Source: Clostridiales bacterium (GTDB lineage: Bacteria > Bacillota > Clostridia > Saccharofermentanales > Saccharofermentanaceae). From it: a stretch of 43,621 bases of DNA. The number at the start of each line of letters is the position of its first letter. Within the stretch, counting starts at the first letter, position 1. Position numbers and translations under genes: made by a program. The stretch lies in assembly GCA_024691135.1 (NCBI GenBank), contig JAILNZ010000055.1, positions 1-43,621 of the forward strand, in the 5' to 3' direction. Positions 8,749-39,165 of this stretch are shown one piece after another. The notes beneath the pieces are model-generated. The model was given only the letters and a program-made list of their open reading frames with translations, was not told the DNA's origin and ran no database searches.

Positions 8749-8751
8749 GTT

Positions 8752-15739: not shown

Positions 15740-15743
15740 GTCA

Positions 15744-16142
15744 TCAGCCCTTCTTCTGCTCGAGAGCTCTGATCCTCTTCTCGAGATCATCTGCCCTTTT
15801 CTTAAGTTCCACGTTGTCACTCTTTACTTCGCCGATCGTCTCGGAGATCCTGTAGTAATAGTAGTTCAGGGTGTTCTGCTGCCTTACGACCGGGAGGATG
15901 AAAAAGCCCGTGATCTTGCGGATGACCTTCTTGAAGAAGACCTTGATCCTGTTGCCCGGAAGAGGCTCATATGGCTGGACTTCGTAGTTATAGGAGATGT
16001 AGTCGATCGCTTCGTCGAGGTCGCCGTTACGCTTTGTCGATTACACGTCTTCAAAGAACAGAGGCTCCTTGTCCTTGCCTGTCCTCACGATCTCGTCGCG
16101 GATACTTTCCATGATCTTCTCTATGTCTACAGTGTTATCCAT
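15744..16142 (-). pseudogene. Small coiled-coil protein gene interrupted by in-frame TAA at codon 34
   Basis: ATG 16142 overlaps the upstream GT stop (ATGGATAA). Translation MDNTVDIEKIMESIRDEIVRTGKDKEPLFFEDV*STKRNGDLDEAIDYISYNYEVQPYEPLPGNRIKVFFKKVIRKITGFFILPVVRQQNTLNYYYYRISETIGEVKSDNVELKKRADDLEKRIRALEQKKG*. The TAA is at 16041-16043 and the frame stays open to 15744. Confidence 0.8.
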
Positions 16143-17325
16143 TTGAAGCCTCCGTACAAAGCTTGAAGAATTCGATATATTTATTCGTCACGACATCCCA
16201 GTCGAACATGCTGTTAACGTATTCATATCCGTTCATGCCCATCTGATCTGAAACGGAAACGTTGTCTCTTATGTAGTTTACCGCACCTTCGAAATCAAGG
16301 AAATTTTTAAAATACAATCCGCCGTTTGATTCGATCACGAAGTTCTTTGTCACGGCACAGTCCTCATGCACGAGAACGGGCCTTTTGCCGAGCCAGCTCT
16401 CCATTATGACGAGGGAGAAACTCTCGTTCTTGGACGGCTGGCACAAAAGGAGCGATGCCGCCTCCGCGTCGATCTTGTCCTGCGGATCGACAAAACCGAG
16501 ATCGATGAACCTGTCGCTGTCCGGAAGATCGATCTTTCCGCCCCCGATCAGGACGAGCTTCATGAAGGAAGGATTGCGCTTAATATATTCGTCAAAATAC
16601 TTCACGAGCGTGTGAACGTTCTTGCCTTCGTCCTTGCGACCCGCATAGAGGATGAACGGGCAGTCGATCTTATATTTTTCCCTGAACCTTTGCGCATCGC
16701 CTGTAAGGCCGCAGTCGACGCCTATTCCCATGACGATCTTGTTTGCTCCCTCTATCTCGAAAAGCCTCTCCGCCAGTTCCTGCTCGGGCTTGGCGTTGAA
16801 CACGAACCCATTGACGTTTTTAAAGACATCTTTGAGGACGTCCATGTGTGCATAGGATTCGTCGTGAAAACAAGGGATGACAACTGACTTTTCGGGACAG
16901 ATCCTGATACCGTTCACGGTCGTTCCGAACATATAGGGGATGAATACGAAAAGGCTGTAGCCATCCTTATGTTGCTCCATATATTCGTAGAGCTTCGGGC
17001 TGTTTATCATCTCCCGGAAGAATATCTCCTGGTCTGGGATCTTCGGCACCCTGCCGCGCATCAGTATCCTGTTGACCCTGTCGAATCCGGAAGAGTCTCT
17101 TTTTCCTGCGGGAAATCTAATCACGGTGATACCGTTTTCGACTGTCTTTCCTTCTTTGTGGTAATTCTCGTTCCAGTCGCTGTCGAACTGTTTTACGCAT
17201 GTGGTGAGGATCTCGAGCTCGACTCCTGCTTCATGAAGGTGCGAAGTCACACCGCGAAGCTCCATCTCGGCGCCTCCCGGAATGTTCTCACCGTACCACG
17301 GAACAACAAACCCGAGTTTTTTCAT
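16135..17325 (-). CDS. Glycosyltransferase family 4
   Basis: 396 aa. MKKLGFVVPWYGENIPGGAEMELRGV, FILYAGRKDEGKNVHTLVKYF, CQPSKNESFSLVIMESWLGKRPVLVHEDCAVTKNFV. Similar layout to 13096..14289. Confidence 0.88.
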   Translation of the reverse strand: MKKLGFVVPWYGENIPGGAEMELRGVTSHLHEAGVELEILTTCVKQFDSDWNENYHKEGKTVENGITVIRFPAGKRDSSGFDRVNRILMRGRVPKIPDQEIFFREMINSPKLYEYMEQHKDGYSLFVFIPYMFGTTVNGIRICPEKSVVIPCFHDESYAHMDVLKDVFKNVNGFVFNAKPEQELAERLFEIEGANKIVMGIGVDCGLTGDAQRFREKYKIDCPFILYAGRKDEGKNVHTLVKYFDEYIKRNPSFMKLVLIGGGKIDLPDSDRFIDLGFVDPQDKIDAEAASLLLCQPSKNESFSLVIMESWLGKRPVLVHEDCAVTKNFVIESNGGLYFKNFLDFEGAVNYIRDNVSVSDQMGMNGYEYVNSMFDWDVVTNKYIEFFKLCTEASNG

Positions 17326-17335: not shown

Positions 17336-18508
17336 TTATTTCCTTGCGATTATCGCGTAGTCCTGGCAGCCATACATCTTCTCAGACAGCTTGGTGATCG
17401 CTTCGTTGACCTCGTCAAGATTCTCGATAGCATCGGATTTGATCTGAGGGATGTTGCCGTCTGCCCTGGATTTCTCGGCAAAAGCGATCTTTACGTCGGT
17501 AAATCCGACGAGTCTTGCGATATATTCGAGATAGTAAGGATGGATCGGCTTCTTGTGGGAAGGATCGATGTAGAATGCATTCGTAAAGATCGATACGCAG
17601 CACGGATTCTGCGTCTCGAAGATGCAGTAACCGCCCTCCTTAAGGACTCTGTATGATTCCCTGTAGAGCGTGATGACATCGTCGTTCGAGATGTGCTCGA
17701 CGACCTGGGCCGCAAATACTCCTCCGAGGGTATCGCCCGGGATCGTCTTCATCAGTGTGATGCCGTTACCGTACTGGACGTCGAGGTCCTTTCTTAAGCA
17801 CTTATTGACAAAAGGCTTGAACATGTCGATGCCGCTCGCCTTGATGCCGTTCTCCCTGAGGAGCTCGAGGAATTCCCCTCTTCCGCTTCCGATCTCGAGG
17901 ACCGGTGCATCCTGCTCCTTGAAGTACGGGACATAGACCGAGAGCTTGTCCTTGATCGTCTCTTCGTCGCCTCTGAAATACGCCTCAAAGCTCTCGTATT
18001 CGAAGTCGGACATTCCGCCTCCGCAGGAGATGCCTGCTTCCTCCATCGCATTCTGAAGTTCGGCGCTCTTCTTGGACAGGTACGTATTCTGTATATTGAG
18101 CTTCATTACGGCATTACGGAGATTGACTATCTCGGCCTCATGCTCGCCCCTCATCCTGTTGAGTTCGTTAAGGGACGCGACAAGGTGGTGGTTCATTATG
18201 TTCTGCTCTGCGAACATGGGTCTGTTGATCTTGGCAAGTATCTTCCAGATGAAGCGCTTGATGCCTGCGCTAAGCTTGTTTCCGCCGAACTGCCTTTCGA
18301 GCGTCGTATCGATATGCGCATTTGCTTCACCGAGCTCGACACGCAGGGCCGAGTCCTCGCCTGAGATGAGGTTGGCGCCGAGGATCAGGTCATCGAACAT
18401 GTGCTTCGAGCCCTCGCCTTTGTCGGATTCGTTCTCGTGACTTACCGCAACGACGTTCTTATCTTCGATCTCTTCTATTATCCTTGAGACTTTTTCCTTA
18501 GTTTGCAT
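17336..18508 (-). CDS. Class I SAM-dependent methyltransferase with N-terminal coiled-coil module
   Basis: 390 aa. VLEIGSGRGEFLELLRENGIKASGIDMF motif I, FAAQVVEHIS..., LKEGGYCIFETQNP. N-terminal half has IKRFIWKILAKINRPMFAEQNIMNHH plus coiled coil. Confidence 0.87.
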   Translation of the reverse strand: MQTKEKVSRIIEEIEDKNVVAVSHENESDKGEGSKHMFDDLILGANLISGEDSALRVELGEANAHIDTTLERQFGGNKLSAGIKRFIWKILAKINRPMFAEQNIMNHHLVASLNELNRMRGEHEAEIVNLRNAVMKLNIQNTYLSKKSAELQNAMEEAGISCGGGMSDFEYESFEAYFRGDEETIKDKLSVYVPYFKEQDAPVLEIGSGRGEFLELLRENGIKASGIDMFKPFVNKCLRKDLDVQYGNGITLMKTIPGDTLGGVFAAQVVEHISNDDVITLYRESYRVLKEGGYCIFETQNPCCVSIFTNAFYIDPSHKKPIHPYYLEYIARLVGFTDVKIAFAEKSRADGNIPQIKSDAIENLDEVNEAITKLSEKMYGCQDYAIIARK

Positions 18509-19553
18509 ACTTCAAGAGCTCCTTTACAACGTGGTCCCATGTAATGTCCATATCGGTTATCTTCTTTTTCGCGGCCTCGCCCATACTGATCGCCTTGTCC
18601 TTATCCGATCCGAGCTTGTCCATCGCCTCTGCGATCGAATCCGAATCAGGCTCACAGATAAATCCGTTCTCGCCGTCGGTGACGAACTCCAGAGGGCCGC
18701 CGCTGTCTTTGGCCGTGATGACGGGCTTGGACGATGCCATGGCTTCGAGAGTGATGTAGCCGTAGTCCTCGTCCTTCGGGATGAAGACGACGCCGCGGCA
18801 GTTCGCGTACATATTGATCTTTTCTTCCTGCGATACGAAGTCAAAATACCTGACACGGTCTTTGAGTCCGTACTCGCTTATGTTCTTGATGAGTTCCTCC
18901 CTGACCTTGACGGTATCGGCGGCTCCGACAATGTAGAGCTTGATGTCCGATTTTGTTTTCGAGAGGGCGCGGAGGGCAAGGAACTGCCTTTTGGTGGAGT
19001 TGACCCTGCTTGGCATGAGAAGGTAGTCTTCGGACTCCTTGCAGTAGAACTTGTCCATGTCCGGGCACGGGTGGTAGAGAGGCGTGGAGTCGAGCCCGCA
19101 GTAGCGCTTGAGCCTCGCGGCGACGTTGCCGGAATTGGCGTAGACGTGCTTGGCCTCCGATATGTACTTAACGTCGGCATTCGTGATGATATCCTTGATC
19201 CTGAGGCCTTCGGCGTCGCTCCTTATGCTCGAAAACTCAGTGTCGAATAAGTCGTACGCCTGCCTGTGCTGATGAAGTATCCACATGACCTTGTTCGGGT
19301 GCGGGATGAGATAGGCGGGGAACTTCATGCCGATCGCGAGATCGATCCGGCCCGCCCATGACTCGCTCACGTTCAGGAGCCTCATGGCGACGATGTGATC
19401 TTCGACTCTGGATATCGGGTTATCGTTAAAAGGAATATTTATGATCTCGACTTCGTGACCATGTTCTTCGAGGGCCTTCCTGAGATTATTGACGTGCATC
19501 TCGGCTCCGCCTTTGACAAAAGGTATCTGGGTCGTAAGAAGCGCAATCTTCAT
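18498..19553 (-). CDS. Glycosyltransferase family 4
   Basis: 351 aa. MKIALLTTQIPFVKGGAEMHVNNLRKALEEHGHEVEI, GVVFIPKDEDYGYITLEAMASSKPVITAKDSGGPLEFV. Confidence 0.9.
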   Translation of the reverse strand: MKIALLTTQIPFVKGGAEMHVNNLRKALEEHGHEVEIINIPFNDNPISRVEDHIVAMRLLNVSESWAGRIDLAIGMKFPAYLIPHPNKVMWILHQHRQAYDLFDTEFSSIRSDAEGLRIKDIITNADVKYISEAKHVYANSGNVAARLKRYCGLDSTPLYHPCPDMDKFYCKESEDYLLMPSRVNSTKRQFLALRALSKTKSDIKLYIVGAADTVKVREELIKNISEYGLKDRVRYFDFVSQEEKINMYANCRGVVFIPKDEDYGYITLEAMASSKPVITAKDSGGPLEFVTDGENGFICEPDSDSIAEAMDKLGSDKDKAISMGEAAKKKITDMDITWDHVVKELLKYAN

Positions 19554-19559: not shown

Positions 19560-20831
19560 TCATTCCTTTCTTATATCTTCGGGTAAATGCCAGGTCTGGT
19601 TGATCCTTACTATGCCGCAGTCTTCGCGCTTGGAATATGTCTCGAAGGAACATGCTTCCTTATAGTAATCGACCGGAACCCAGTTCCCGCTCTGTATGGC
19701 AAGATCCACCAGGTATTTTCCAGGGAGGAGATCGACCACGGGCATCTCGATCTCAAGGACTCCGTCCTTCTCGATATCGAACTTCGGGAGCCTGTCGATC
19801 CTCGTGTTCGTGCCGTAGCAGTAGACGCCGTCGTTCCTGAATATGCCTACGCCGAAGACGGCATCCTCGATCTTCTTTTTGACCTTGAAGGTAACACGGA
19901 TCGTGATCTTGGAACCGACATGGAAGACCGTCTTTTCTTCGCCGTCCTTATCGAGGATCTTAACGTTCGTGATCTTCGCGTCGCCGTTTCCGAATCTCTT
20001 CTTGTCTTCCTCTTTTTCTTCGGTCTCTTCTTCGCCGGACTCTTCTTTTGCGGAATCTTCTTCCCTGGCCTTTTCTTTTTTCAGCTGGTCGTTACGGAGC
20101 TGTCCCATGTAGTCGAGATACTCCGGATGGATGTCTCTCGGGAGGCCGTCAGCTACGATCTTGCCGTCGTTGATCCAGACCGTCCTGTCACAGAACGCCT
20201 CGATCTGTTCAAGCGAATGCGATACGATGACGATCGTCGTTCCCTTGGCCTTGATCTCCTGAAGCTTCGAGAAGCATTTTGCCTGGAAGTTCGTGTCGCC
20301 GACCGCGAGGATCTCGTCTATGAGGAGCACGTCGGCATTGACGTTGATCGCTACCGAGAACGCGAGCCTCATGTACATGCCGGAAGAATATGTCCTTACC
20401 GGGTTATCAATAAATTCCTCGAGCTCCGAGAAGGCGATGATGTCGTCAAGACGGCGGTCGATCTCCTTTTTCGAGAGGCCGAAGATGGATGCGTTCGTGT
20501 ATATGTTTTCCCTGCCGCTCATGTCAGGGTGGAAGCCTGCGCCAAGTTCAATGAGGCTCGATACTCGGCCCTTGACGTCGATGGTTCCCTTATCCGGGTA
20601 CAAGATCCTCGTCATGAGCTTGAGGAGCGTGGACTTGCCGCAGCCGTTGTGACCTATGAGGCCCACTGCTTCGCCCTTTTTGACCGTAAGCGAGATGCCG
20701 TCCAGGACGACACGGTCCTCGTGACGGTTCCTTCCCCTGAAGAGGATCCTCTCCTTGAAGCTCTGGCCCTTGTCGAAGTAAACCTTGAACTTCTTTGTCA
20801 GATCTTTGATCACGATCGAATTCTCTGCCAT
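19560..20831 (-). CDS. wzt: Polysaccharide ABC transporter ATP-binding protein with C-terminal Wzt-like carbohydrate-binding domain
   Basis: Walker A GHNGCGKST, signature YSSGMYMRLAFSVA, Walker B VLLIDEILAVGD, acidic linker, then a Wzt_C-like region (VFGVGIFRNDGVYCYGTNTRID...LLPGKYLVDLAIQ). Start placed at ATG 20831 (MAENSIVIKDL), 1 nt after the permease stop, instead of 20888. Confidence 0.92.
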   Translation of the reverse strand: MAENSIVIKDLTKKFKVYFDKGQSFKERILFRGRNRHEDRVVLDGISLTVKKGEAVGLIGHNGCGKSTLLKLMTRILYPDKGTIDVKGRVSSLIELGAGFHPDMSGRENIYTNASIFGLSKKEIDRRLDDIIAFSELEEFIDNPVRTYSSGMYMRLAFSVAINVNADVLLIDEILAVGDTNFQAKCFSKLQEIKAKGTTIVIVSHSLEQIEAFCDRTVWINDGKIVADGLPRDIHPEYLDYMGQLRNDQLKKEKAREEDSAKEESGEEETEEKEEDKKRFGNGDAKITNVKILDKDGEEKTVFHVGSKITIRVTFKVKKKIEDAVFGVGIFRNDGVYCYGTNTRIDRLPKFDIEKDGVLEIEMPVVDLLPGKYLVDLAIQSGNWVPVDYYKEACSFETYSKREDCGIVRINQTWHLPEDIRKE

Positions 20832-20832
20832 A

Positions 20833-21618
20833 TCAAAGTTCCTCCGCAAAGTGCTTCTTGAGCTTTCCGAAAACGAAGAAACCCGCAACGAGGAAGAAGA
20901 CTCCGAGGCCCAGAGCCTCCAGGAGCGTCGACATGTCTGGCAGCTTTGATTCGTAAAGTATAGTTCTGTATGCGTTTATCACAGGTGTCATGGGATTGAT
21001 GTGAGTCATGACGAACTTGATCTTCGGCGGGAGATTGTCGTATCTCTCCTTAGGATAGACGACAGGCGTCAGGTACATCCAGATCATCGAGATGATGCTC
21101 AGGATATGCTCCACATCCCTGAAGTAGACAGTCAGTGCCGACGTGATCATGGCAATTCCCAGAGCCAGGATATATTCGATGATCATAATGACCGGAAGAT
21201 AGAGTATGCCGAGAAGAAGGATCTTCGTTCCCGATATGATGACGACTGCAAAAACGACGATAAAGCAGAGGAGCATGTTGACAAAACAGCTCGTGACATA
21301 AGATATCGGCAGGACTTCCCTCGGGAAATATATCTTTTTTACCAGGTCCTTCTGGGAGAGGACCGAAGTGGATCCGCCCGTGATCGATGCCTGGAAGAAG
21401 ATCCACGGTATGAGCGCGACCGTAAGGAAGAGATAGTACTTATCCATACCGGTCGGAAGGATTACCGCAAAGACGAATGAGTAGACGAGGATCTGGAACA
21501 GAGGATTCAAAAATGTCCACAGAAAGCCCAGAACGGAACCTTTGTAGCGTCCGCGCAGGTCCTTCCTGACAAGGCTAATGATCATCTGGCGATAATCCCA
21601 AATCTCTTTAAACATCAA
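20833..21618 (-). CDS. wzm: Polysaccharide ABC-2 type transporter permease
   Basis: 261 aa. VRKDLRGRYKGSVLGFLWTFLNPLFQILVYSFVFAVIL, typical of Wzm/TagG-type permeases. Directly upstream of wzt. Confidence 0.92.
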   Translation of the reverse strand: MMFKEIWDYRQMIISLVRKDLRGRYKGSVLGFLWTFLNPLFQILVYSFVFAVILPTGMDKYYLFLTVALIPWIFFQASITGGSTSVLSQKDLVKKIYFPREVLPISYVTSCFVNMLLCFIVVFAVVIISGTKILLLGILYLPVIMIIEYILALGIAMITSALTVYFRDVEHILSIISMIWMYLTPVVYPKERYDNLPPKIKFVMTHINPMTPVINAYRTILYESKLPDMSTLLEALGLGVFFLVAGFFVFGKLKKHFAEEL

Positions 21619-22535
21619 CCGTTTCCTCTCCTAAAGTCTTCGAGCACTTCCTTCACCGTCTCGAAAACATCATGCTCCGGTTCAAATCCCGTGGCCTCCC
21701 GGAGCTTAGTTATATCGGCCCTGATATGGACCAGTTCATTATCGTCCAGACGTGGCGGAAGCGTTACTTTTGCCATGGCGGCGGGACTTGCTTCCATGAG
21801 TTTTCCGATAAGATCCCTGATATAGATGCTCTTGCCGGATCCCACGTTATAGATCCCGTTCTTCTCGCCCTTTTCGGCAAGGAGCCTGTATGCTCTTACG
21901 ACATCCCTGGCATCGGAAAAATCGCGCCATGAATCGAGATTGCCGAAGGTGAACGTATCGATCTTCCCTCTCTCGAGATCTGCGATCCTCTTACAGTAAT
22001 CGGAGACAACAAATCCCGTCTTCTGTCCGGGTCCTATGTGATTAAAAGATCTCGTCATGATAACGTTGAGATCATACTTCTTTGCCATAAGGAAGACCAG
22101 GTCTTCCTGCGCATTCTTCGACACGTCATAAGGTGACGTGCAGTTCAAGGGAGTTTCCTCCGAGATGACTCCGTCCTTTGCCTTCGATCCGTCATACTGA
22201 TTGGCCGAGCCGATCAGCATCACGCGGCACTTCGGACAGCACTTGCGGACTGCCTCGAGTATATTTACGGAGATATCGATATTGAGGTGCATCGTAAGAA
22301 GGACCTTCTCCCACGAGATGCTCGGAGCAGCCTGTCCCGCGAGATTGAAGATGATGTCGGGCTTAAGTTCGTCAATGAGGTCATAAGCCTTCTCGGGATC
22401 GAGCATGTCGACGATCCTTACGTTGTCATTATCGGAAACGACATCAACACCGAAGACTTCGTATCCGTTATCTTCGAGTTCATGTCTTAAGTATGTTCCG
22501 GCAAAGCCGTTCGCACCTACTACAAGTGTTCTCAT
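21615..22535 (-). CDS. rmd: GDP-6-deoxy-D-lyxo-4-hexulose reductase (GDP-4-keto-6-deoxymannose reductase)
   Basis: 306 aa extended SDR. GANGFAGTYLRHEL, NLAGQAAPSISWEKVLLTMHLNI, YDVSKNAQE, TRSFNHIGPGQ. Adjacent to gmd. Confidence 0.8.
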   Translation of the reverse strand: MRTLVVGANGFAGTYLRHELEDNGYEVFGVDVVSDNDNVRIVDMLDPEKAYDLIDELKPDIIFNLAGQAAPSISWEKVLLTMHLNIDISVNILEAVRKCCPKCRVMLIGSANQYDGSKAKDGVISEETPLNCTSPYDVSKNAQEDLVFLMAKKYDLNVIMTRSFNHIGPGQKTGFVVSDYCKRIADLERGKIDTFTFGNLDSWRDFSDARDVVRAYRLLAEKGEKNGIYNVGSGKSIYIRDLIGKLMEASPAAMAKVTLPPRLDDNELVHIRADITKLREATGFEPEHDVFETVKEVLEDFRRGNG

Positions 22536-23560
22536 CAGTTAAGTCCGTTTTCCTTCTTTACGATCTCGAGATCGTTTCTTACCATGCGCTTAACGAGTTC
22601 TGCAAAATCTATCTCGCGCTTCCAGCCGAGTACTGTCTCGGCCTTGGTCGGATCGCCGATGAGAAGATCGACTTCCGCCGGACGGAAGAACTTGGGGTTG
22701 ACCTTAACGACGACCTTCCCGGTCTTCTTGTCAACACCTGTCTCATTTACGCCTTCGCCCTTCCACTCGAGTTCGATACCGAGCTCTCTGAAGGCGATCT
22801 CGCAGAATTCACGGACTGTTCTTGTCTCGCTTGTTGCAACAACATAATCATCAGGCTTATCTGCCTGGAGCATGAGCCACATGGCTCTTACATAATCCTT
22901 GGAATGACCCCAGTCACGCTTGGAGCTCAGGTTGCCGAGTTCCAGATGATCCGTAAGGCCGAGGCTGATCTTGGCAGCCGTATTCGTGATCTTTCTCGTG
23001 ACGAATTCGATGCCGCGTCTTTCCGATTCGTGGTTGAAGAGGATACCGGAACATGCAAACATTCCGTAGCTCTCTCTGTAGTTCTTTGTGATCCAGTGGC
23101 CGTAGAGCTTGGCTACGCCGTAAGGTGATCTCGGGTAGAAAGGAGTCGTCTCGCGCTGCGGAACTTCCTGAACGAGACCGAACATCTCTGATGTGGATGC
23201 CTGATAGAACTTTGCTTCAGGCTTAACAGTTCTTATTGCCTCGAGCATGTTGGTCACGCCGACGGCATCGATATTGGCAGTCGCGATCGGCTGCTCCCAT
23301 GATGTAGCCACGAACGACTGTGCAGCCAGATTATATACTTCGTCAGCCTGGGATATCCTCATGGCCGAGATAAGGGAGATCGGGTCTGTCATATCGGCAT
23401 AGATAAACGTTACCTTGCCGACCAGGTGATTGGAATTACCGTAATCTGCGACGCTCTTACGCCTTACGATACCGTATACCTCATAGCCCTTCTCCAAGAG
23501 AAGTTCAGCCAGATATGAACCGTCCTGACCTGTGATTCCTGTTATTAATGCTCTTTTCAT
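22535..23560 (-). CDS. gmd: GDP-mannose 4,6-dehydratase
   Basis: 341 aa. [76 protein letters not shown]. Confidence 0.95.
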
Positions 23561-23688: not shown

Positions 23689-24423
23689 TCAGTAAGGAAG
23701 GATCCTTGCTTCGATACATTTTTCCACGAACTCAGGGCTTCTCGTGAATCCGAGAACGACCTGTTCCCTGGTCATGTTGTTCTTCATGCAGTTCAGCCAG
23801 TATTTCTTGCCGTCAGGATCGGAAGGTCTGTCCATGAATGTCAGATAGAGCCTTTCCAGGAACTCTTCATCGCTTAAGTCATAGCCCTTCATCTCGTCAC
23901 TTAAGAAGAAGCTTACGCCTACGGCTTCGCCCGTTAACTTGAAGTTGGCGAGAGCATTTGCCCAGTGGTCTCTGCCGCTTTGATCAAATCCTCTTCCGAG
24001 GGCCGTCAGATACATCCTCTCGACAAATCCGTACGTAAGATCCGAAGGAGCAATATTTACCTTCGGCGAGTATGATCCGCCCGATCTTATACCGTAAGAC
24101 GCACAGGTATCGGCCCACTCCTGCGAGTCGATAAAGCCCATCGCGACTTCATGTCTCGTCATGACTCCCGATGACAGCTGCGACATCCAGAACTTCTTTC
24201 CCTCGTCATCAGGCTCACGTCCGAAGAAGGTACGGTACAGTATATCGACAAACTCACTTTCCGTCTTGTTCCTTCCCTTAAACTCAGGACTGTCAATAAA
24301 ACCGATGGCGACCTGGGCGCCCGTCTGTCTGAAGCAGTAGAGTTCATCTGTCCAGTAATCTATTCCGCCCGGTTCCGAAGGCCTTCCTAAGACATAATCA
24401 TAGAGCCTTTCAACAAATCCCCT
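23689..24423 (-). other. DUF4214-like module, four units in ABAB order
   Basis: Units GFVERLYDYVLGRPSEPGGIDYW, EFVDILYRTFFGREPDDEGKKFW, GFVERMYLTALGRGFDQSGRDHW, EFLERLYLTFMDRPSDPDGKKYW. Confidence 0.7.
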
Positions 24424-27400
24424 GATGCCTTCCTTGTTGTCCGGTGTCTCAGGCTCAGGCTCCGGAGTAACCGTTACGACAGGCGTCGGCGGAGGCGGAG
24501 TTACCGGGATATCCTTGATCTTGAACGTGATATCCTTCTTCCCCTCATAATTTCCCATGCCGGTTATCGTGACAGTCGCCTGTCCCGGATCAGTGTTGTT
24601 CTTATATGTAAGGCTGTAATCCGTTCCTTCGGTAAGAGTAATGCTTCCGTTCTTGACCTTCGGCTTCGGACTGATCTCGGACCCCGTATAATCCTTATCG
24701 GATATCTGGCTTATGCTGAGATCTTTTATCTTTGCCTTGACTATCTTGAACGTCACGGTCTTGGAACCTTCGTAGTTTCCCTTACCCGTGACTGTTACCG
24801 ACGCATCCGATCCGACCTTTTTGTTGTCGCTGAATGATACCTTGTAGTCTTCGTCTTCCTTCAAGACAGTTCCCTCATCCGTTACATAGACATCAGGACA
24901 GATATATCCGCCCGTGAAGGCCTTGTCGGAGATCTTCGCGATATCTGCAAGAGAGATGTCCTTCGGAACTATCACGAAGCTTCCTTCAACGGTTCCCTTG
25001 TAGTTGTTGATACCCGTGATCTTATATGTGGCGGTTCCTGCGTTGATATTCGAACTATACTCGACCTTGAAGTCCTGGTCCTTGATGAGCTCGGTATTAT
25101 CCCCCGTCACAACAAAGTCAAACGTTATCTCTTTTCCGGTATACGTCATCTCTTCTTCGGCACCCTTGATGCTGAAGTCCGACATGTCCTTGGGATCGAT
25201 CCTGAACGATAACGATACCGTACCCTTATAGTTGTTCTTTCCTTCGATCCTTATTCCCGCCTCGCCGGCATTCGTATGGTTCGAGAAGAATATGTCATAA
25301 TCGTCCGGGCTTACTACGGTCTCCCCGTCCCTCACCGTAACGGAAGGAACTATCGAAGATCCCGTATATACGATGTCTTCTATGTCGTCGATCGTAAGGC
25401 CCGATACGTCCTTCGGCAGGATCACGAAAGAAACTTCCGATTCGCCCGTGTAATTGCCCTTGAAGCTTACTTTGATCTTTCCCTCGCCGGCATTTACATT
25501 GTTCTCATATGTCAGGTCATAATCCCTGTCCGTAAGGATCTTGTCCTTGTCCCTGATCACTACGGAAGGAGTTATGGGCGATCCTTTATATGTTGCCTGT
25601 GGTAATTCATCGATCTTTAACGGCGTCCCGTCCTTTGCCACGATGTTGAACGTGGTATGAAGGACTCCGCAGAAATTTCCGCAGCCTTCGACCGTCAGGT
25701 CATAAGATCCGGTATCAATGCTGTTTACCGTATAGACCTTATAATCCGTATCGAAAACAAGTTCAACGTCTTCCCATCTGAGCACGACCGGAGGGATGAT
25801 CTCGGATCCCGTGTAGATCATGTCGGAGACAGGATCAACGGTCATGTCTTCTATGCTCCTGGCATTTATCATGAAAGTGCCTTCGAGGATGCCTTCGAAG
25901 TTGCCCATGCCCGTGACCGTAACTTCGGCAGGACCGACGTTTACATTGTTTTCGTAAGTTACAAAATAATCCCTGTCTTTTTCAAGGATGATGTCGCCGT
26001 ATTGTACCTTGACCTGCGGCATTATCTCACTGCCCGTGTATGTCTTTTCGGAAAGGCCCTTTATCTCGAGGCTTCCTATGTCAAAAGCAACTATGTTGAA
26101 CGTCACAGTCGTGCTTCCGCAGAAGTTGCCCTTGCCCTCTATCAGGATCGATGCTTCACCCTTTTCGAGATTGGAGGAATAAGAGATGACATAGTCGGAG
26201 GAGGATAGCGCGGCGCCGCCGTAAGATAATACCGGAACAGGCGATATGGGATATCCGGTGTAGGTCTTGTCAGCGATATCTTCTATATCAAGGCCGTCGA
26301 TGTCCCTGGGTGTGACCTCGAACAGAAGAACCCGCTCGCCTTCGTAATTGCCGGTACCTTCCAAGGTAACCTCATAGGTTCCCGAACCGACCGGATCGTC
26401 ATATGTGAGGATATAGTCTTCGCCGGCCTTAAGCTCCCTGCCGTTGTCTTTTACGGAAACTTCAGGTGTAAGGACATTTCCGGTGTAGATCTGAGGCGCG
26501 ATATCTTCTATGTCGAGTTCATCCGCGGACTTCGGATCGATCACGAAAGTGCCGTCGATATTTCCGGAGAAATTGCCCGTACCGTATATGCTGTACGAAG
26601 CAGTGCCCGCGTTGATATTATCCGCGTAGCTTATCTTATAGTCTTTGCCTTCAGTAAGTTCCGTCCCGTTAAAGAGGATCTGCGGTTCTATCGTAAGTTC
26701 CGACCCCGTATACGTCTTTGAATCAGCGATGCCCGTGACATCGATTCTTCCGATGTCTTTCGGAAGTATGTCGAACGTGGCGCAGATCTCGCCCGCGTAA
26801 TCACCTTTGCCCGCAACAGTTACCGTATGCGTGCCGACATCAGGATCATTATCATAAGATACCGTGTAATCGGTTCCTTCGGTAAGTATGTCTTCGCCGT
26901 CCCGAACGGTAACAGAAGGCTCAAAGACTTCTCCCGTGTAGGTCACCGGATCGATCTCATCAATAGTAAGATCGTAGACGGTCTCTTTTGCGATCCTGAA
27001 ATACAGGGTCAGTTCGCCGGTGTAATCGTTTATGCCGGTTATCCTTGCCGTCGCGTCACCTATCTGATCGTTTCCTTCATAAGTGATCTCGAAGTCCACG
27101 TCCTTTACGAGAACATAATCGCCGTTTCTTATGACGACCTCAGGACAGCACTCTTCGCCCTCGATAAATCTTTGCGCCTTGATCGGTTCGACCGTCAGGA
27201 CAGACAGGTCTTTTGCATTGATGATAAATGTGGTCTCTATGCTGCCTTTGTAATTTCCCTTGCCTTCGATCAGGACTCTTGCGGTGCCAGGGTTAACATT
27301 ATCTTCGAAGGATACTTCATAATCGGTTCCTCTGATAAGTTCAATACCATCTGAGGTTACCGTAAATTCCGGTTCAATATTGTCACCAGTAAAGATCTCG

Positions 27401-29970
27401 GAAGGTATCTCAGATATCCCGGAACCTTCTATATCCTTAGGAGTGATCTCGAATTCGAGCGTGATCTCGGAAGCGTAATTCCCGGTACCCGTAATAACAA
27501 CAGTTCCTGAGCCCGCATTGATGTTAGTTCCGTAAGATACTTCAAAATCCGTTCCGTTTATAAGCTCAGTTCCGTCACAGACAACTGTCACGTCAGGCTT
27601 TATCTGCGCGCCTGTATACTCGAAGCTTTCTCCGACCGCCGCTTCCGATATATCAATAGACCTGCTCAGGATAAGGAAGCTTATCTCCTTTACGCCTTCG
27701 TAGTTACCCTTGCCCGTGATAGTTACGGTTCCTTCTCCCGCGTTAAGGTTCTCCCCGTAGGAGAGTTCGTAATCGACGTATTCGAGAAGTACAAGAGAAT
27801 CAACTGTCACTTCGAACTCAGGCTTTATCTGCCTGTTCTCGAAAACAATGTCCTCTATGATCGGCAGTTCCATCCCGCCTATATCTTTTGCCCCGATCAC
27901 GAAAGACCCGGTTATCGATCCCTTGTAGTTTCCAATACCGGTGATATCGATAACGGCCGTTCCTGTATCCGTATTATCCTCAAAAGAGACTTCGTAATCT
28001 TCTCCCTGCGTCAGGGTCTTTTCCCTGTCCTTTATGACTATATCCGGAGTGATCTCCTGACCCGTATAGATCCGGGCCCCGACAGGATCCATGGAAAGCT
28101 CCCCGATATCCTTCTCTTCGATCGTAAAGTCGAACGTTTCCGACCCCGTGAACCTTCCCGTTCCTGTCACCGTGATCTTACCCGTGCCGGCATTCACGTT
28201 ATTGGAATAGGAGACCTCGAAGTCCTCTTCCCTGACCAAAGAAACGCCGTTCATGCTTACTGTAATATCCGGCTCCAGCTCGTTTCCGCCGTCATAGACC
28301 AGCTCGTCCTCATACTCGAAAACAAGCGTCTTTATATCCCTCTTCCTGATAACAAAAGTCTTCTCTATCGTTCCTTCGTAGTTTCCGATACCCGTGATGG
28401 TTATAACGGCCGTTCCCGGTTCCGTATTATCCGAATAAGAGACGGTATAGTTCTCAGGCTCTATGATCGATCCGTTGCCGTAAACACAGAAATTCGGAGT
28501 AATCGCATTCCCCGTATATTCCTTGTCCTTTATCTCGTCTGTCGTCCACCCCGCGATACTCTGCGGAAGGATCTTATAAGATACCTCCGTACTTCCCGTG
28601 AAGTTGCCTTTTCCGGTGAGGATTATCTGATAAGTCCCTGCATTCTTCTGAGGCGATCCCGACCTGGAATAATCGCCGGTTGTGAGCTCCCTGCCGTTAT
28701 AAGTCAACGACAGGAAAGGAAGCTGATATCCGTCGTTAAATACAAGGTCTTCAATATCTTCGATCTGTACTTCCGATATATCCCTCGGTAATATATTGAA
28801 CCCGGTTACCGTCTGGCCTTTGTAATTACCCTTGCCGCTGATATATACGTTATTATCCTCACCTGCATCAATGCAGCCGGTGTAGAAGAGATCATAATCA
28901 ACTCCCTTTGTCAGGAGCTTCCCGTTCAACGTAACGGCAGGCTCGGGATGGATCTCTCCGCCTGTATAGATCTTGTCCTCTATGTCCGATATGGAGGCAT
29001 TAGTAAGAGAGAGCTTATCTACCGTGATATTGATCTCAGCAGAAGCCGTGATATCACCGTCAAATACGATGCTTGCGACAACATCGGCATTTCCTTCCTT
29101 CACGGGAACAAGTTTTCCGTTCTCGATCCTTACGACCGATTCGTCTTCGGAATACCACGTTATGTCATAGAGATCACTTGAAAGCTTGACACCCGCGGTA
29201 GTCGACTGATTCCTTACCTTGATCCTGACGGAAACATCAGGAAGATCATAAGGGTCATTGCCGAGGAACAGTACTTCTGAAGTTATATCAGGATAAGCCG
29301 TTGCCTCAAGATTGATCTTATCCGTATCTATGTCGAGGGTCCTTGTCATATTGCCGACAAAGGCAGTCGTGGAAGTTCCCGTGGAACAGGTGCTGCTGTA
29401 GCCGAATTCCAGGACCCAGTAATCAAATCCGTCATATGTGAACTTGGATGAGCCGACATAGGTATAAGTGCCGAGCATGATCCTTCTGTGCCCCTGCCCC
29501 GCAAAAGGCGCATCAGTTTCCTTCCAGGCGTCAAAAACATCCTGAACCGTAAAAGTATCGCTGTGGACCATCCTCAGGAGGCATTCACCCTTTGCGACAG
29601 ATCCGTTATAGGTCAAAGTGCTGAACTTGGATCCGTCAGGCCTGTTGTGACTGTTGGCAAGGATATACTCCGCCGCCCTCTGCATGGCGATCTGTTCGAG
29701 ATTATAACTGTAGGTGAGATTAGGAAGACTCAAAAAACCGCTGGACTCTTCGGAATCATCTTCGTTTCTGAGCCAGTACCAGGCTTCGTCAGGATCATGA
29801 CGCCACTGTTCGAGAAGAGGATATATCCTTCTGGCTTCTTCCTGATCATAGTATCCCGTTACGGTGCAGCTGTACGTGGAGGCGCAAACGTCCGCAGAAT
29901 AGAGACCCAACAACAAGAGCGTTGTCAGTATAAGACATAAATATCCGATGCAAGATCTCTTCTTGTTCAT
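23689..29970 (-). CDS. Giant secreted CAP-domain protein with about 20 YTG/GNYEG-type repeats and C-terminal DUF4214-like module
   Basis: 2093 aa. Signal peptide; CAP-like region (IAMQRAAEYILANSHNRPDGSKFSTLTYNG...GHRRIMLGTYTYVG...YWVLEFG); repeats of about 75 aa; Pro/Thr linker; GFVERLYDYVLGRPSEPGGIDYWTDEL... RBS AGGAGG. Confidence 0.88.
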   Translation of the reverse strand: MNKKRSCIGYLCLILTTLLLLGLYSADVCASTYSCTVTGYYDQEEARRIYPLLEQWRHDPDEAWYWLRNEDDSEESSGFLSLPNLTYSYNLEQIAMQRAAEYILANSHNRPDGSKFSTLTYNGSVAKGECLLRMVHSDTFTVQDVFDAWKETDAPFAGQGHRRIMLGTYTYVGSSKFTYDGFDYWVLEFGYSSTCSTGTSTTAFVGNMTRTLDIDTDKINLEATAYPDITSEVLFLGNDPYDLPDVSVRIKVRNQSTTAGVKLSSDLYDITWYSEDESVVRIENGKLVPVKEGNADVVASIVFDGDITASAEINITVDKLSLTNASISDIEDKIYTGGEIHPEPAVTLNGKLLTKGVDYDLFYTGCIDAGEDNNVYISGKGNYKGQTVTGFNILPRDISEVQIEDIEDLVFNDGYQLPFLSLTYNGRELTTGDYSRSGSPQKNAGTYQIILTGKGNFTGSTEVSYKILPQSIAGWTTDEIKDKEYTGNAITPNFCVYGNGSIIEPENYTVSYSDNTEPGTAVITITGIGNYEGTIEKTFVIRKRDIKTLVFEYEDELVYDGGNELEPDITVSMNGVSLVREEDFEVSYSNNVNAGTGKITVTGTGRFTGSETFDFTIEEKDIGELSMDPVGARIYTGQEITPDIVIKDREKTLTQGEDYEVSFEDNTDTGTAVIDITGIGNYKGSITGSFVIGAKDIGGMELPIIEDIVFENRQIKPEFEVTVDSLVLLEYVDYELSYGENLNAGEGTVTITGKGNYEGVKEISFLILSRSIDISEAAVGESFEYTGAQIKPDVTVVCDGTELINGTDFEVSYGTNINAGSGTVVITGTGNYASEITLEFEITPKDIEGSGISEIPSEIFTGDNIEPEFTVTSDGIELIRGTDYEVSFEDNVNPGTARVLIEGKGNYKGSIETTFIINAKDLSVLTVEPIKAQRFIEGEECCPEVVIRNGDYVLVKDVDFEITYEGNDQIGDATARITGINDYTGELTLYFRIAKETVYDLTIDEIDPVTYTGEVFEPSVTVRDGEDILTEGTDYTVSYDNDPDVGTHTVTVAGKGDYAGEICATFDILPKDIGRIDVTGIADSKTYTGSELTIEPQILFNGTELTEGKDYKISYADNINAGTASYSIYGTGNFSGNIDGTFVIDPKSADELDIEDIAPQIYTGNVLTPEVSVKDNGRELKAGEDYILTYDDPVGSGTYEVTLEGTGNYEGERVLLFEVTPRDIDGLDIEDIADKTYTGYPISPVPVLSYGGAALSSSDYVISYSSNLEKGEASILIEGKGNFCGSTTVTFNIVAFDIGSLEIKGLSEKTYTGSEIMPQVKVQYGDIILEKDRDYFVTYENNVNVGPAEVTVTGMGNFEGILEGTFMINARSIEDMTVDPVSDMIYTGSEIIPPVVLRWEDVELVFDTDYKVYTVNSIDTGSYDLTVEGCGNFCGVLHTTFNIVAKDGTPLKIDELPQATYKGSPITPSVVIRDKDKILTDRDYDLTYENNVNAGEGKIKVSFKGNYTGESEVSFVILPKDVSGLTIDDIEDIVYTGSSIVPSVTVRDGETVVSPDDYDIFFSNHTNAGEAGIRIEGKNNYKGTVSLSFRIDPKDMSDFSIKGAEEEMTYTGKEITFDFVVTGDNTELIKDQDFKVEYSSNINAGTATYKITGINNYKGTVEGSFVIVPKDISLADIAKISDKAFTGGYICPDVYVTDEGTVLKEDEDYKVSFSDNKKVGSDASVTVTGKGNYEGSKTVTFKIVKAKIKDLSISQISDKDYTGSEISPKPKVKNGSITLTEGTDYSLTYKNNTDPGQATVTITGMGNYEGKKDITFKIKDIPVTPPPPTPVVTVTPEPEPETPDNKEGIRGFVERLYDYVLGRPSEPGGIDYWTDELYCFRQTGAQVAIGFIDSPEFKGRNKTESEFVDILYRTFFGREPDDEGKKFWMSQLSSGVMTRHEVAMGFIDSQEWADTCASYGIRSGGSYSPKVNIAPSDLTYGFVERMYLTALGRGFDQSGRDHWANALANFKLTGEAVGVSFFLSDEMKGYDLSDEEFLERLYLTFMDRPSDPDGKKYWLNCMKNNMTREQVVLGFTRSPEFVEKCIEARILPY
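24515..29013 (-). repeat. Array of about 20 protein repeats (about 75 aa, 225 bp each)
   Basis: Counted by eye. Consensus like I.DI.D.xYTG..I.P.v.V.dg...L..g.DY.vsY..N.naGta.vtItGkGNYeG....tF.I..kDI. Boundaries approximate. Confidence 0.85.
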
Positions 29971-30068
29971 CAGGACCTCCTAACACACAAAACGCGATAT
30001 TATTATATCACCCTGCCATACCCCTTATCAGCATTCTCCCCTTTTTGTTACAAAATATTAATCTAAAT

Positions 30069-30104
30069 AAAAAGAGCCTTCTCTTTCTCGAAAAAGCTCT
30101 TTTT
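30069..30104 (-). terminator. Intrinsic terminator of the giant Ig-repeat gene
   Basis: AAAAAGAGC / GCTCTTTTT stem; the minus strand continues into ...TTTTTATTTAG. Confidence 0.85.
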
Positions 30105-30147
30105 ACGTTATCAAAAGTGTTATTTCCCGCCTTTCAGGCGCCTGTCA

Positions 30148-30893
30148 TCAGTAAGGAAGTATCCTTGCCTCAATGCACTTTTCGACAAACTCAGGACTTC
30201 TGGTAAAGCCCAGGACAAGCTGTTCTTTTGTCATTCCCTTATTCATACAAGACATCCAGTAATCCTTTCCGGCCTTGTCGGAAGGTCTGTCCATGAAGGT
30301 CAGGTACAGCCTCTCTATAAATTCATCATTATCGAGATCATAACCCTGCATCTCAGGACTTAAGAAGAAGTTTACGCCAACCTGTTCGCCTGTCATCTTG
30401 AAGTTGGCAAGTCCGTCTGCCCAGTAGTCTCTTCCCGATTTATCAAAGCTTCTGCCGAGTGCCGTAACATACATTCGCTCTACAAATCCGTAGGTGAGAT
30501 CCGTCGGTGCGATCTTAACGCTCGGAGCGTAGGATCCTCCCGATCTGATGCCGTATTCAGCACACTTGTCCGCCCACTCAGGCGAGTCGATGAAGCCCAT
30601 TGCCACCTGATGCCTTGTCATCGTTTTCGACTTGAGCTGTGATACCCAGAATTTCTTTCCTTCGGCTTCAGGTTCACGGTCGAAGAACGTCCTGTAGAGA
30701 ATATCGACGAACTCTTCGTCACTCTTATTTCTTCCCGCAAATTCAGCGCTGTCGATAAATCCGATTGCGACCTGAGCACCTGTCTGTCTGAAGCAATAGA
30801 GCTCATCAGTCCAGTAATCTATTCCGCCCGGTTCAGAGGCTCTTCCGAGTACGTAGTTATAAAGCCTCTCGACAAATCCTCTTATGGCTGTCT
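30148..30893 (-). other. DUF4214-like module, four units, near-identical in protein to 23689..24423
   Basis: GFVERLYNYVLGRASEPGGIDYWTDELYCFRQTGAQVAIGFIDS... versus GFVERLYDYVLGRPSEPGGIDYWTDELYCFRQTGAQVAIGFIDS... Both end in FVEKCIEARILPY. Confidence 0.75.
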
Positions 30894-33800
30894 TTGCATC
30901 ATAAGGTGTCGGCGTCACAGGCGTCGGCGTGGTCGGAGTAGGTGTTACAGTGGTCGGTGTCGGGGTTACGACACTGACATTAAAGTAGACACTTTCCTTG
31001 TTGATGCTGTCGCTGACATCACAACGGTACTTCGTATCCTTATCAGGCTTAGCCTTATAAGTGGAAGATGAAGCGCCCGATATCTTGTTCGACTTACTTC
31101 CTTCGACCGTATACCAGCTGTATGTAAGCTGATTTGACGAAGTCGTGGAAGCCGTTACCTTAAGTTCTGCCGTCTCTCCCTTCTTGATCTTGAATGAAGA
31201 GCTGTTGCCTGTCGCGGTAAGCGTGTATACAGTTACTTCATAATCGAATACAACCGTATTTCCGTAATGGTCGCTTACGGTACACTTATACTTCGCGGAG
31301 CTTGACGCTTTGTCTGAATAGCTCGAAGAAGAACTGAGGATCACGCTGCTTCCGCTCTTTGTCCATACATATTCAAGCTGTTCGTCAGCAAGACTGCTCT
31401 TGGCATTAGCCGTCAGCGTGAATGTATCGCCGCTCTTTACGGAGATCTTTCCTTCATAGGAACCCTTGGTAAGAGTAGGTACCGTGATCTCAAAATCAAC
31501 ATTATGCTTGTTGCCGTAATTATCCGATACAACGCATCTGTAGGATGCTGACTTATCAGCCGTGAAGCTGTAAGTCTTGGATGTAGCACCGGAGATATTG
31601 GTGTAAGATCCCGATTTCTTGATCTGCCACTGATATTTAACGCTTCCGGTATTTGACGTTACGTCTGCCTTGAGCGTGACACTTGCTCCCTTAGAAACAG
31701 TCTGCTTGAGGTCCTTGGAATTATCGGTAAAACTGCACTCCCTTACCGTAACATTGAACGTCAATGTCTTGCTGTTATATCCGTCCGTTACCTTGCAGTA
31801 ATAAGTCGTATCATTATGCGGCTTGACGGTACAGGAAGAAGTATCGGAAAGCTTCACGTTTTCCTTGCCCTGCTCATACCAGTTATACTGTATGGTCTTC
31901 TCGGATGAGGCAGTAACGGACAATTTCGCGGAGCCTCCGTCAAAGATCGTATAATCCGACTGGGACGTAGTAGCTGTCAAAGTTACGACCGTTACTGAAT
32001 AAGTTACGGTAACCGAATTATTGTAATTATCCGTGATCACACAGTAATACGTTGCATTCGATGTCGTATTCGTGCTGAGGGAACTCTGCGTAGCGTTACT
32101 TATCACGCTGGAACCCTTCTTCCAGGTATAGTGGAGTTCGCCTCCGACACTGCTCGTTGCATTTGCATTAAGCTTGAATGTACTTCCGTTTCCGACTGTC
32201 AGACTGTTAGATGTATTCGATACATTGATCGTCGGAACGGTAATCTCAAATACAACATACTTCGTGTTGCCGTAATCATCCGTTACGGTACATCTGTATG
32301 TCTGGGAAGAAGTTGCCGTAAACTTGTATGTCTTTGCATTCGCCGTACCTGATGCATTCACATAATTGCCACTGGCATTTTTCTTCTCCCACTTGTAGTG
32401 AAGAGCACTGTTTGCATTCGACTCGACTTTTGCTTCAAGAGTGATCTTGGAGTTGTAGCTTACGGTCTGCTGCTTTCCTTCGGATCTGTCCGTAAGAGTA
32501 GCTTCCACTACCGATACGTCAAAGGATAATGTACGCGTGTTATAGCCGTCGCTTACTTCACAGCAATAAGTCGTATCCGTAGAAGGAGCGATAGTCAGAG
32601 AAGACTTATCTGACAATTTCTGTGTCGTGCCTTCCTTGTACCAGAAGTAAGTGATCTGATCATTATCGGATGTGGCATTTACCGACATGCTTACGGTATC
32701 ACCCTTAAATATCGTGAACGACTGCTGGGACGAACTTACTTCAAGGACGATTACCGTTACCGTATAGCTGATGGTTATCGAGTTGTTGTAGTCATCCGTG
32801 ATCTCACAGGTATAGACTGCCGATGAATCGGCAACTCCGCTGAAGGTAGCCGTCTTGATATTCGTAGTTGTCGAACCCTTCTTCCACTTATAGTGAAGAG
32901 TCGATCCTGAAACGCTGCTTACTGCATTTGCGGTAAGCGTAAATGACAGTCCCTTTCCTACTGTAACGGAAGTCTGGTTCGTTCCCTTGGTAAGAGTAGG
33001 TACCGTTATCGAGAAATCGACGTTGACCGTATTTCCGTAGCTGTCACTTACAACACATCTGTAGCTGCCCGAAGCGTTAGCCGTAAGAACGTATGAACTT
33101 GCCGTCTGGTTCTGGATATTGACGTATTTACCGGACTTCTTTTCCTGCCATGTATAGCTTAACGTGCTTCCGGAATTGGAAACAACATCAACTGCCAAAG
33201 TTACGGAATCGCCCTTCTTTACGGTACGGACCTTATTAACCGTATTATCCGTAAGAGAAGTATTCATTACGGAAACGGTAAACGTGAACGTCTTACTTCC
33301 GTATCCGTCGGTAACATCACAGCGGTAGACCGTATCGGTCTCCGGACTTGGCGAGAATGTGCTTCCCGAACCGATCTTCGTATCGGATCCTGCAATATAC
33401 CAGTCATATGTGATGCTGTTGTCACTGGTCGTCGATGCCGTGATCGTCATCTCCGCCTTGTCTCCTCTGAAGATCGTCAGCGAAGGCTCGCTCTGCTCGG
33501 CCGTGAGTGCGTATACCTTTACGGTATAGCTGATGGTTACCGTATTGTTATATTCATCAGTGACCTTACACTTGAAGAACTTCGTTCCGCTGCCTATTAC
33601 GGAAGTGGAATAAGAAGGTGCGTTTGCAGCATCCTGGATAGTGGTATTGCCCAGGATCCATGTGTAGGTAAGATTACTTCCGATACTGCTTACGACTACT
33701 GCATCCAATTTGAACGTCTGATCTTCACCGACCTTTAAGGATGTCGTGTTCGAACCCTTTGTAAGAGTAGGTACGGTAACGGTAAATGATACGTTCAGAC

Positions 33801-36800
33801 TGTCATAACTGTTCGATACAACGCAGCGGATATTTCCTGATGCATTGGCCGTATATGTATAAGATGACGAAGAAGCACCTGCTATATCAGAGTATGTTCC
33901 GTTTGTCTCCATCTTCTGCCACTGATATGTGATATTGCCGGCATTCGAGGTTACATTGGTCTGAAGCGTAACGCTTTGTCCCTTCTTAACGATCTTATCG
34001 GTATCCGTGGTATTGTTAATAAGATATGTGGAATTGACCACGACAGTAAAGTTCAGATATTCGGTATTATACTGATCGCTGACCTTACATACATATCTGG
34101 TCTCGGTATCAGGGCTGACCTTAAGGGTAGAAGTAGTACTCAGGACTGTTCCCTCATTTCCGCTCTGATACCATGTAAACGTCGGTTGATTTCCCGAGGT
34201 GGAAACAGCATCAACAGACATTGTCGCCTGATCACCCCTGAAGATATTTACCGTCTTTCCCGGATCCTGCATACAGGTAAGGGAATATACTGTAACGTTA
34301 TATGTTATCGTCACACTGTTATTGTAATTATCCTTGACTTTACACTTGAATACCGTCGTCTCCGAGACAGAATAAGAGTAGGAGGATACCCGGCCCTTGA
34401 TATCGGTCGAATCTCCGATCGTCCACTCATAAGTAAGAGAACTGTTGATGCTGCTTACTACATTCGCAGTCATCGTTACGGTATCTCCTTTTCCTGCCTC
34501 GAAGAATGTCTCGTTCACGCCTAATTCAAGAGTAGGAAGCGTGATATCAAAATCAACGTTTACACGGTTATTGTAGTTATCTGTTACGACACATCTGTAG
34601 TAGCCTGAAGAAGTTGCCGTAAAGGAATACTTGGAGGAAGTCTGGTTTGATATAACCGAATAGGATCCTGAAGCATTCATCTTATACCACTTGTACTTGA
34701 GAGTGCTTCCTGCATCGGATACCACATTGACTTCGAGTTCGACATTTTCTCCGTTACTTACTATCCTTGACTTGTTTTCGGTATTATCCGTAAGTGTCGC
34801 ATTCTTGACGGTTACGACAAAAGTAAGTGTCTTAGTGTTATAGGAATCACTCACCTCACAGTAATATGTCTTACTGGAAGACGGCTTAGGAGAATAGCTC
34901 TTCGTGGAGTTGAGATTTCCTGACGGATTATCCGAATCATACCATCTGTAAGTAATGGTATTACCGCCCTGTGTACTTGCCGTAACTGACATAGAAGCGG
35001 AATCGCCGTTAAAGATCGTAAGTTCCGCACTGTTCTGTGTCGCCGTGAGCTTACATACCGTTACGTTATATTGGATCGTTACGGTATTGTTGTGCGTATC
35101 GGAGACCTTGCAATAGAATGTTGAAGTCGAACTTACCGTAGGGGAATATACCGAGCCCGTAGACAGTACTGTACTTGATGATCCCTTGGTCCATGAATAG
35201 GAAAGGGTATCGTTAGAACTGCTTACTGCATTTGCTTCCATACTGCATACCTGGCCTTTACCGACCTTGATGGAAGTAATATTCTCACCTATCGTAAGTG
35301 TAGGAACAGTAATTACAAAATCAACATTTTTGGTGTTTCCGTATGTATCCGTAACCACACATCTGTAGTTACCGGAAGCTGTTGCCTTAAAGGTATAACT
35401 GCTTGACGTAGCTCCGCTTATATTCGTATACGAAGAACCTGACTTCTTCTGCCACTTATAGGTAAGCGTGCTGCCCGCATTGGATGTGACATTAGTCTCG
35501 AGAGTAACGTTCTCACCGTTACTTACGGTTCTTACCTTGTTAGTCGTATTGTCTGTAAGGACTGCGTCCTGAACGGTTACGACAAACGTAAGTGTCGTTG
35601 TATTATACGTATCGCTTACTTCACAATAATAGGTCGTATCGGAAGACGGCTTCGGATTATAGGAACTGCCCGTAGATAGAACCGTATTCGGAGAACCTGC
35701 GGCATACCACTTATAGGTGATAGTGCTGTTGTCCGAAGTTGCAGTTACGGACATTGATGCAGTATCGCCATTAAAGATCGAGATATCCGTCATGTTCTGC
35801 GTTGCCGTTAGCTTTATAACAGTAACCGTATAAGTGATAGTGATCGAGTTGTTGTAATCATCTGTGACCTTGCAGTAATACTTGGTCGTCTCGGAAGTCG
35901 ATGTCGAATAAGATGCGGCACTATGTACGCTCGTTGACGAAGGAGATCCCTTGGTCCATGAATAGTAGAGTCTGCTGTTATGACTGCTTACCGCATTTGC
36001 CGTGAGAGTAAAGGACTGGTCCTTGCCGGCTTTGATGCTTGTGGTATTATTTCCTGCGGTCAGTGTAGGAACGGTTATCGTAAAATCAACATTTTTGGAG
36101 TTGCCGTAATCATCGGTAACGACACATCTGTAGTAGCCTGTGGAATTAGCCGTATAAGTATATTTCTTACTCGTCTGATTACTGATGTTTACGTAGTTTC
36201 CGCCGGAACTCTGCGACTGCCACTGATAGTGGAGAGCAGATCCCGCATTTGACGAGACATTTACTTCAAGAGTAACGCTCGCGCCTTTTTTAACAACACG
36301 TGTCTTGTTCTCGGTATTGTCCGTGAGTGCGGCCTGAAGGACCGTTACTTGACATGTGAGAACGGTGGTATTATATGTGTCGCTTACTTCACAGCAGTAA
36401 GTGGTATTTGATGAAGGCTTTGGTGAATAGGAACTTGATGTGGAAAGTACTGTTCCCTGCTGACCCTGGATATACCACTTGTAAGACAGCTTGTCATTTC
36501 CCGCTGTCGAAGAGGCATTGACTGACATCTGTGCTTCATCTCCGCCGTATATCGAGAGGGAAGAATTATTAAGGCCTGCCGTGAGCTTATAGACCGTAAC
36601 GTTATATGTTACCGTTACGACGTTATTATATTCGTCCCTGATCGTACACTTATATGTGGTGCTCAACGAAGATGATGTCGTATAAGACGATGCACTGCTA
36701 AGGACGGTGGTCGAACTGCCCTGTGTCCATGCATACGACAGACTGCTGTTGTGACTGCTCGTTACGGAAGGAGTCATGGTAAATGACTTTCCTTCACCTG

Positions 36801-39063: not shown

Positions 39064-39165
39064 AAAGAACACCCCCTAAAATCTTCTTTCTTATATTAAA
39101 TAATGGATCGGGGTGTATTTCAATCAAAAATACTAGAATTGTTGCAAATTCTTTATGCTTATTTA

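Follow-up and report, generated by a model that had tools for sequence, protein, structure and literature searches.

A four-unit DUF4214 module as a probable noncovalent surface anchor of secreted proteins in a Saccharofermentanaceae bacterium

How are two giant secreted proteins, encoded side by side in a clostridial genome, held at the cell surface? The window analyzed here, a stretch of 43,621 nucleotides, is contig 145 of a 1.97-Mb MAG with 75% completeness. Giant protein 1 (positions 23689 to 29970, minus strand; 2,093 amino acids) and giant protein 2 (30148 to 39072, minus strand; 2,974 amino acids) share the same architecture: a signal-peptide-like N-terminal stretch, an N-terminal CAP domain found with Pfam (29404 to 29727 and 38620 to 38910, respectively, both on the minus strand), a long repeat region, and a C-terminal block of four DUF4214 units, here called DUF4214x4. 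The repeat region consists of about 20 MBG-like repeats (by eye) in protein 1 and many Ig-like repeats in protein 2. Between the two genes, a hairpin with A and T runs on its flanks was noticed by eye at 30067 to 30107, and it may terminate the transcript of the upstream giant gene.

The DUF4214x4 module of protein 1 lies at 23692 to 24420 on the minus strand (units at 24271 to 24420, 24109 to 24306, 23887 to 24027, and 23719 to 23913), and that of protein 2 lies at 30151 to 30879 on the same strand (units at 30730 to 30903, 30565 to 30765, 30346 to 30486, and 30178 to 30372). PF13946 matched four stretches in each protein, scoring 174 and 175 bits against a gathering cut-off of 23.2, and the two C-terminal blocks are 81% identical over 244 amino acids, which is far beyond chance. 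An earlier note on this DNA had taken the module to be the only element common to the two proteins; in fact, the CAP domain is also found in both. The same note had stated that both giants lack LPXTG, SLH, and a C-terminal transmembrane segment, and motif, Pfam, and transmembrane scans bore this out. No LPXTG-like motif was present in the last 120 residues of either protein, neither had a transmembrane segment outside the N terminus, so that the C terminus is not that of a sortase substrate, and neither contained an SLH-like motif or a PF00395 match. Sortases themselves are encoded in the source genome (three matches) and in 82 of the 85 genomes of the genus, the source genome included. Thus, the missing LPXTG is a trait of the two giants and not of the cell, and the argument that another mechanism is needed for want of a sortase was dropped.

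Directly downstream of the giants on the same strand lies a rhamnan-type run of gmd, rmd, wzm, wzt, and glycosyltransferase genes, as the earlier note had described. All of its genes are on the minus strand. They encode a GDP-mannose 4,6-dehydratase, Gmd (22535 to 23560; TIGR01472, above the cut-off), an Rmd-like GDP-4-keto-6-deoxymannose reductase (21615 to 22535) whose closest solved structure is the GDP-6-deoxy-D-lyxo-4-hexulose reductase 2pk3 (E value, 5e-54), and, by sequence match, a Wzm-like ABC-2 permease (20833 to 21618) and a Wzt-like ATPase with a C-terminal Wzt_C domain (19560 to 20888), the best solved relatives of which are O-antigen-type and teichoic-acid ABC transporters. Family matches identified four glycosyltransferases (18498 to 19553, 16135 to 17325, 14286 to 15368, and 13096 to 14289) and a methyltransferase (17336 to 18508), and a small ORF (15365 to 15820) had no family match. 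A GDP-mannose pyrophosphorylase-like protein with NTP_transferase and ManC beta-helix domains is encoded at 10168 to 11250. The gene set for an ABC-dependent D-rhamnan, i.e., Gmd, Rmd, Wzm, Wzt, glycosyltransferases, and GDP-mannose supply, is therefore complete in one cluster. The Gmd, Rmd, Wzm, and Wzt assignments are credible by homology, and it is a fair reading of them that the product would contain D-rhamnose. Gram-positive gmd-rmd and wzm-wzt clusters hold the same genes for GDP-D-rhamnose and ABC export, the present operon being known from its sequence. Farther downstream (4648 to 9837) are HlyD-like, MacB-like, and two BPD-permease ORFs.

In the source genome, 103 DUF4214 units are distributed among about 28 proteins on many contigs; hence, the module is not peculiar to the giant-protein locus. 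We compared 132 nonredundant full-length ORFs that have at least three units and come from the genus or its named near relatives (rumen and gut Clostridia, including one Saccharofermentans sp.), leaving aside the genome G302 described below. Exactly four units were present in 122 of them, and the module was C-terminal in 118 and N-terminal in 13. A signal-peptide-like start, called with a home-made hydrophobicity rule, was found in 128 of the 132, compared with 235 of 774 other ORFs at these loci, a set that may include spurious frames, and none of the 132 had an LPXTG motif or a C-terminal transmembrane segment. The anatomy of the module, its use throughout the genome, and its fixed terminal position are thus shown. 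The bodies that bear it include transglutaminase, polysaccharide deacetylase, L,D-transpeptidase, CAP, LRR, Ig, and beta-helix domains according to Pfam. Besides, an SH3 protein (L021) resembles an autolysin-like glucosaminidase by eye, Pfam finding in it only SH3 and DUF4214. A scan of viral contigs with the module gave no relatives, and the phage collection searched gave one weak match. DUF4214 ORFs are dense at L197 to L200 (G013 contig 2, 10000 to 84732), where some have an N-terminal module and one also has choline-binding repeats.

A second module, ChW (PF07538), proved informative about the role of DUF4214x4. Like DUF4214x4, ChW forms a terminal block with a fixed number of repeats, mostly six, on signal-peptide proteins; it occurs on the same bodies, often at the same terminus, and the two are mutually exclusive across the genus. 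However, the sequences are unrelated, and ChW sits at the N terminus in most cases (38 of 57), unlike DUF4214x4 with its preference for the C terminus. No ORF contained both. Among the 85 genomes, the 22 that are ChW rich and the 23 that are DUF4214 rich did not overlap (Fisher P = 5e-4, kinship ignored). On an rpoB tree, ChW changes only about five times, which leaves a paired test underpowered, and the argument for exchange therefore draws mainly on the homology of the bodies.

This homology was sought in 40 regions around ChW matches in nine genomes, sampled for convenience and not at random, together with the loci already collected. A DUF4214-bearing homologue of the body was found for 34 of the 59 sampled ChW proteins or, counted by family, for 9 of 22, and in seven of the nine the two modules occupy the same terminus. 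The clearest swap is an LRR protein with 54% identity over 619 aligned columns, spanning the whole body, which ends in ChWx6 in G001 and in DUF4214x4 at L094. Likewise, a glucosaminidase-like body carries a C-terminal DUF4214 in all seven DUF4214-rich genomes tested and six N-terminal ChW repeats in G001, G017, G066, G077, and G085, and a 1,946-amino-acid CAP-plus-repeat protein with ChWx6 resembles giant protein 1. Judged by these homologies, ChW and DUF4214x4 have evidently been exchanged on homologous bodies, in whichever direction. Two LRR bodies of the swap set, L094:8219-10723 (plus strand) and L238:3284-6154 (minus strand), contain a stretch that looks SLH-like by eye and that Pfam did not confirm. 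A further glucosaminidase-like paralogue occurs in DUF4214-poor genomes (L219 to L231, e.g., L219:1-2418 on the plus strand); by eye, its N-terminal region resembles degenerate DUF4214 units, with no match in Pfam.

Tandem blocks of SLH or CWB2 hold many different proteins on the wall via wall polymers, a logic comparable to that seen here, although DUF4214x4 belongs to another family and has another number of units. ChW can be used as a display anchor (PMC6700490). Given this and the shared bodies, DUF4214x4 most likely has the same function, and by sequence comparison it likely belongs with the noncovalent wall-binding modules of the ChW, SLH, and CWB2 type. The ligand of ChW itself is not known (PMC5817068), and the swap accordingly names no ligand for DUF4214x4. 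Taken together, terminal placement on secreted proteins, the wall-enzyme bodies, and replacement by ChW give strong comparative support to a noncovalent anchor. We therefore consider it quite probable that DUF4214x4 is a module for noncovalent retention at the cell surface, and we infer that its binding partner is a component of the wall of the bacterium itself. A giant protein would be exported via its signal peptide, the compact all-helical block would bind the wall component, the CAP and repeat regions would point outward from the cell, and the module would play the role that the ChW hexamer has in sister lineages. The candidate ligands are the gmd-rmd-wzm-wzt product, peptidoglycan, and another wall polymer. 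Against the wall-anchor reading, the exclusivity of ChW and DUF4214 stems from few independent changes, and the nearest solved fold, discussed below, binds proteins and not sugars.

The earlier note went further in proposing that the module anchors the giants to the rhamnan made by the neighboring operon. In the survey of 85 genomes, in which high unit counts were taken from candidate counts, DUF4214 is bimodal, with 23 genomes having at least 27 units and 62 having 0 to 3. Rmd is present in 22 of the 23 rich genomes but in only 10 of the 62 poor ones (Fisher P = 1e-11, kinship ignored), and Wzt_C parallels it, being present in 22 of the 23. The one rich genome that breaks the pattern, G095, has a completeness of 69%, and both Rmd and Wzt_C are present in its sister G048. 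When 65 genomes were placed on an rpoB tree, however, DUF4214 richness and Rmd were each seen to change only about four times, and an independent-pairs test across these few changes gave a median P of 0.5. Within the limits of 65 genomes, kinship accounts for the strong raw association that the survey revealed, and we no longer take co-occurrence as proof of a link. Moreover, the core gmd-rmd-wzm-wzt-GT-GT-ManC is alike in the DUF4214-rich genomes G019, G060, and G068, in the ChW-using genomes G001, G017, and G066, and in G003, which has neither module and whose gmd is cut by a contig end. Adjacency of a giant gene to gmd was likewise dropped as evidence, since it is confined to the close relatives G062, G099, and G096 and is absent in G070, G013, G060, and G012.

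A distant genome bears on the same point. Across 392 genomes sampled from the class, representing 219 genera, DUF4214 was abundant only in the source genus and in G302, a single contig of 1,515,556 bases that, judging by its content, is presumably from a segmented filamentous bacterium (SFB). Neither gmd nor rmd was found in this DUF4214-rich genome, the best gmd match reaching 31 bits and 27% identity. The operon core thus persists where the DUF4214 set is missing, and G302 is rich in DUF4214 without gmd and rmd, both of which weaken the claim that the rhamnan is the ligand. SFB DUF4214 proteins are of the same Pfam family and are secreted, as in the source genus, but those of G302 mostly have only one or two units each, so that the ligand there could differ. 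Two G302 proteins of the Amidase_2 family, L187:3574-4227 (minus strand) and L196:2888-3586 (plus strand), carry one C-terminal DUF4214 unit and no signal peptide. In both, the unit follows the catalytic domain, the usual site of the wall-binding domain in related phage lysins. The neighbors of these genes are ordinary chromosomal families (gidA, gidB, and phoU), by which the amidase genes look chromosomal and not prophage derived. An apparent open frame of 13,605 amino acids in G302 was rejected, because it starts in masked bases and gives no real protein length.

Specific binding of DUF4214x4 to the D-rhamnose polymer of the neighboring operon, for which the raw distribution of Rmd and Wzt_C and the credible Gmd, Rmd, Wzm, and Wzt assignments speak, consequently appears unlikely to us, with a modest chance of being right: the few changes on the tree, the operon core kept in ChW-using genomes and in G003, the SFB-like genome, and the poorly conserved adjacency all argue against it. 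Pairing of the module with an rmd-dependent glycan is possible, the support for it not extending beyond shared ancestry. The operon glycan might instead be coupled covalently to proteins of the surface, in the manner of S-layer glycoproteins, and not be a receptor, with the adjacency reflecting modification or chance. In Gram-positive bacteria, clusters for S-layer glycans likewise contain wzm and wzt genes, and S-layer genes are in some cases found close to them (PMC2943079), but no ligase, initiating transferase, or other attachment enzyme was recognized within the window, and adjacency fails in the four genomes named above; we regard this explanation as quite improbable. Even release of the proteins, with the module binding an external target such as plant fiber or mucin, would suit the rumen and gut origin of the relatives and the adhesin-like repeat bodies. 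It is nevertheless very improbable, as the deacetylase, L,D-transpeptidase, and amidase bodies speak for the bacterium's own wall as the target, and so does the swap with ChW.

The predicted fold raises yet another explanation, in which the module docks on a surface protein layer or on itself, as a phycobilisome linker does on phycobiliproteins. AlphaFold2 with 73 sequences modeled DUF4214x4 as an all-helical block (pLDDT 96), whereas single-sequence folding was poor (pLDDT 61). All 50 Foldseek matches listed for the model were phycobilisome linkers, with a probability near 1.00 for most of those listed and a TM score to the target of up to about 0.59. A PDB search with one module sequence gave no match, and a profile search gave only weak matches to phycobilisome linkers. 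In two DUF4214 proteins, PBS_linker_poly scored 25.5 and 26.6 bits, below the Pfam cut-off of 28.7, and no such match was listed for either giant. The model suggests that the module is remotely akin to the protein-binding linker fold. Yet the phycobilisome linker domain (PF00427), which resembles the module in predicted fold and weakly in sequence profile, is part of an intracellular light-harvesting scaffold of cyanobacteria, and a linker-like fold would speak neither for nor against sugar binding. Against docking on protein, the module occurs on wall enzymes and, in amidases, at the usual place of a wall-binding domain, is swapped with ChW, and has no identified partner protein, and we consider this alternative improbable. 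The retention module that we favor can also be combined with several of these elements into a single reading, namely, a new class of wall-glycan anchor that has a phycobilisome-linker-like fold, that in this genus binds the rmd-dependent polymer, and that one lineage replaced with ChW across many proteins while keeping the polymer. That full combination seems rather unlikely.

Of the noncovalent glycan-binding anchor put forward earlier, the surface anchor has thus gained support from terminal placement, wall enzymes, and the ChW swap, whereas the rhamnan has lost ground to kinship and to G302. Calling it a new display system is too strong, because a likely role of DUF4214 in anchoring proteins to the surface of SFB was described in 2025 (PMC12780176). 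In a literature made up mostly of journals readable without subscription, in which four papers mention DUF4214, we found no prior report of an exchange with ChW or of a phycobilisome-linker fold for DUF4214. In Pfam, DUF4214 still has the status of a domain of unknown function, and the comparative evidence that it fills the slot of ChW suggests a role that can be tested in Clostridia of the gut and rumen as well as in SFB, where surface attachment is at issue. Furthermore, anchor-for-anchor exchange on many homologous proteins amounts to a natural experiment on the selection of wall-binding modules. Sortases also vary within the genus: the mean number of matches is 3.7 in genomes with neither module, versus 2.3 in DUF4214-rich and 1.3 in ChW-rich genomes, which may point to a third strategy at the cell surface where both modules are missing.
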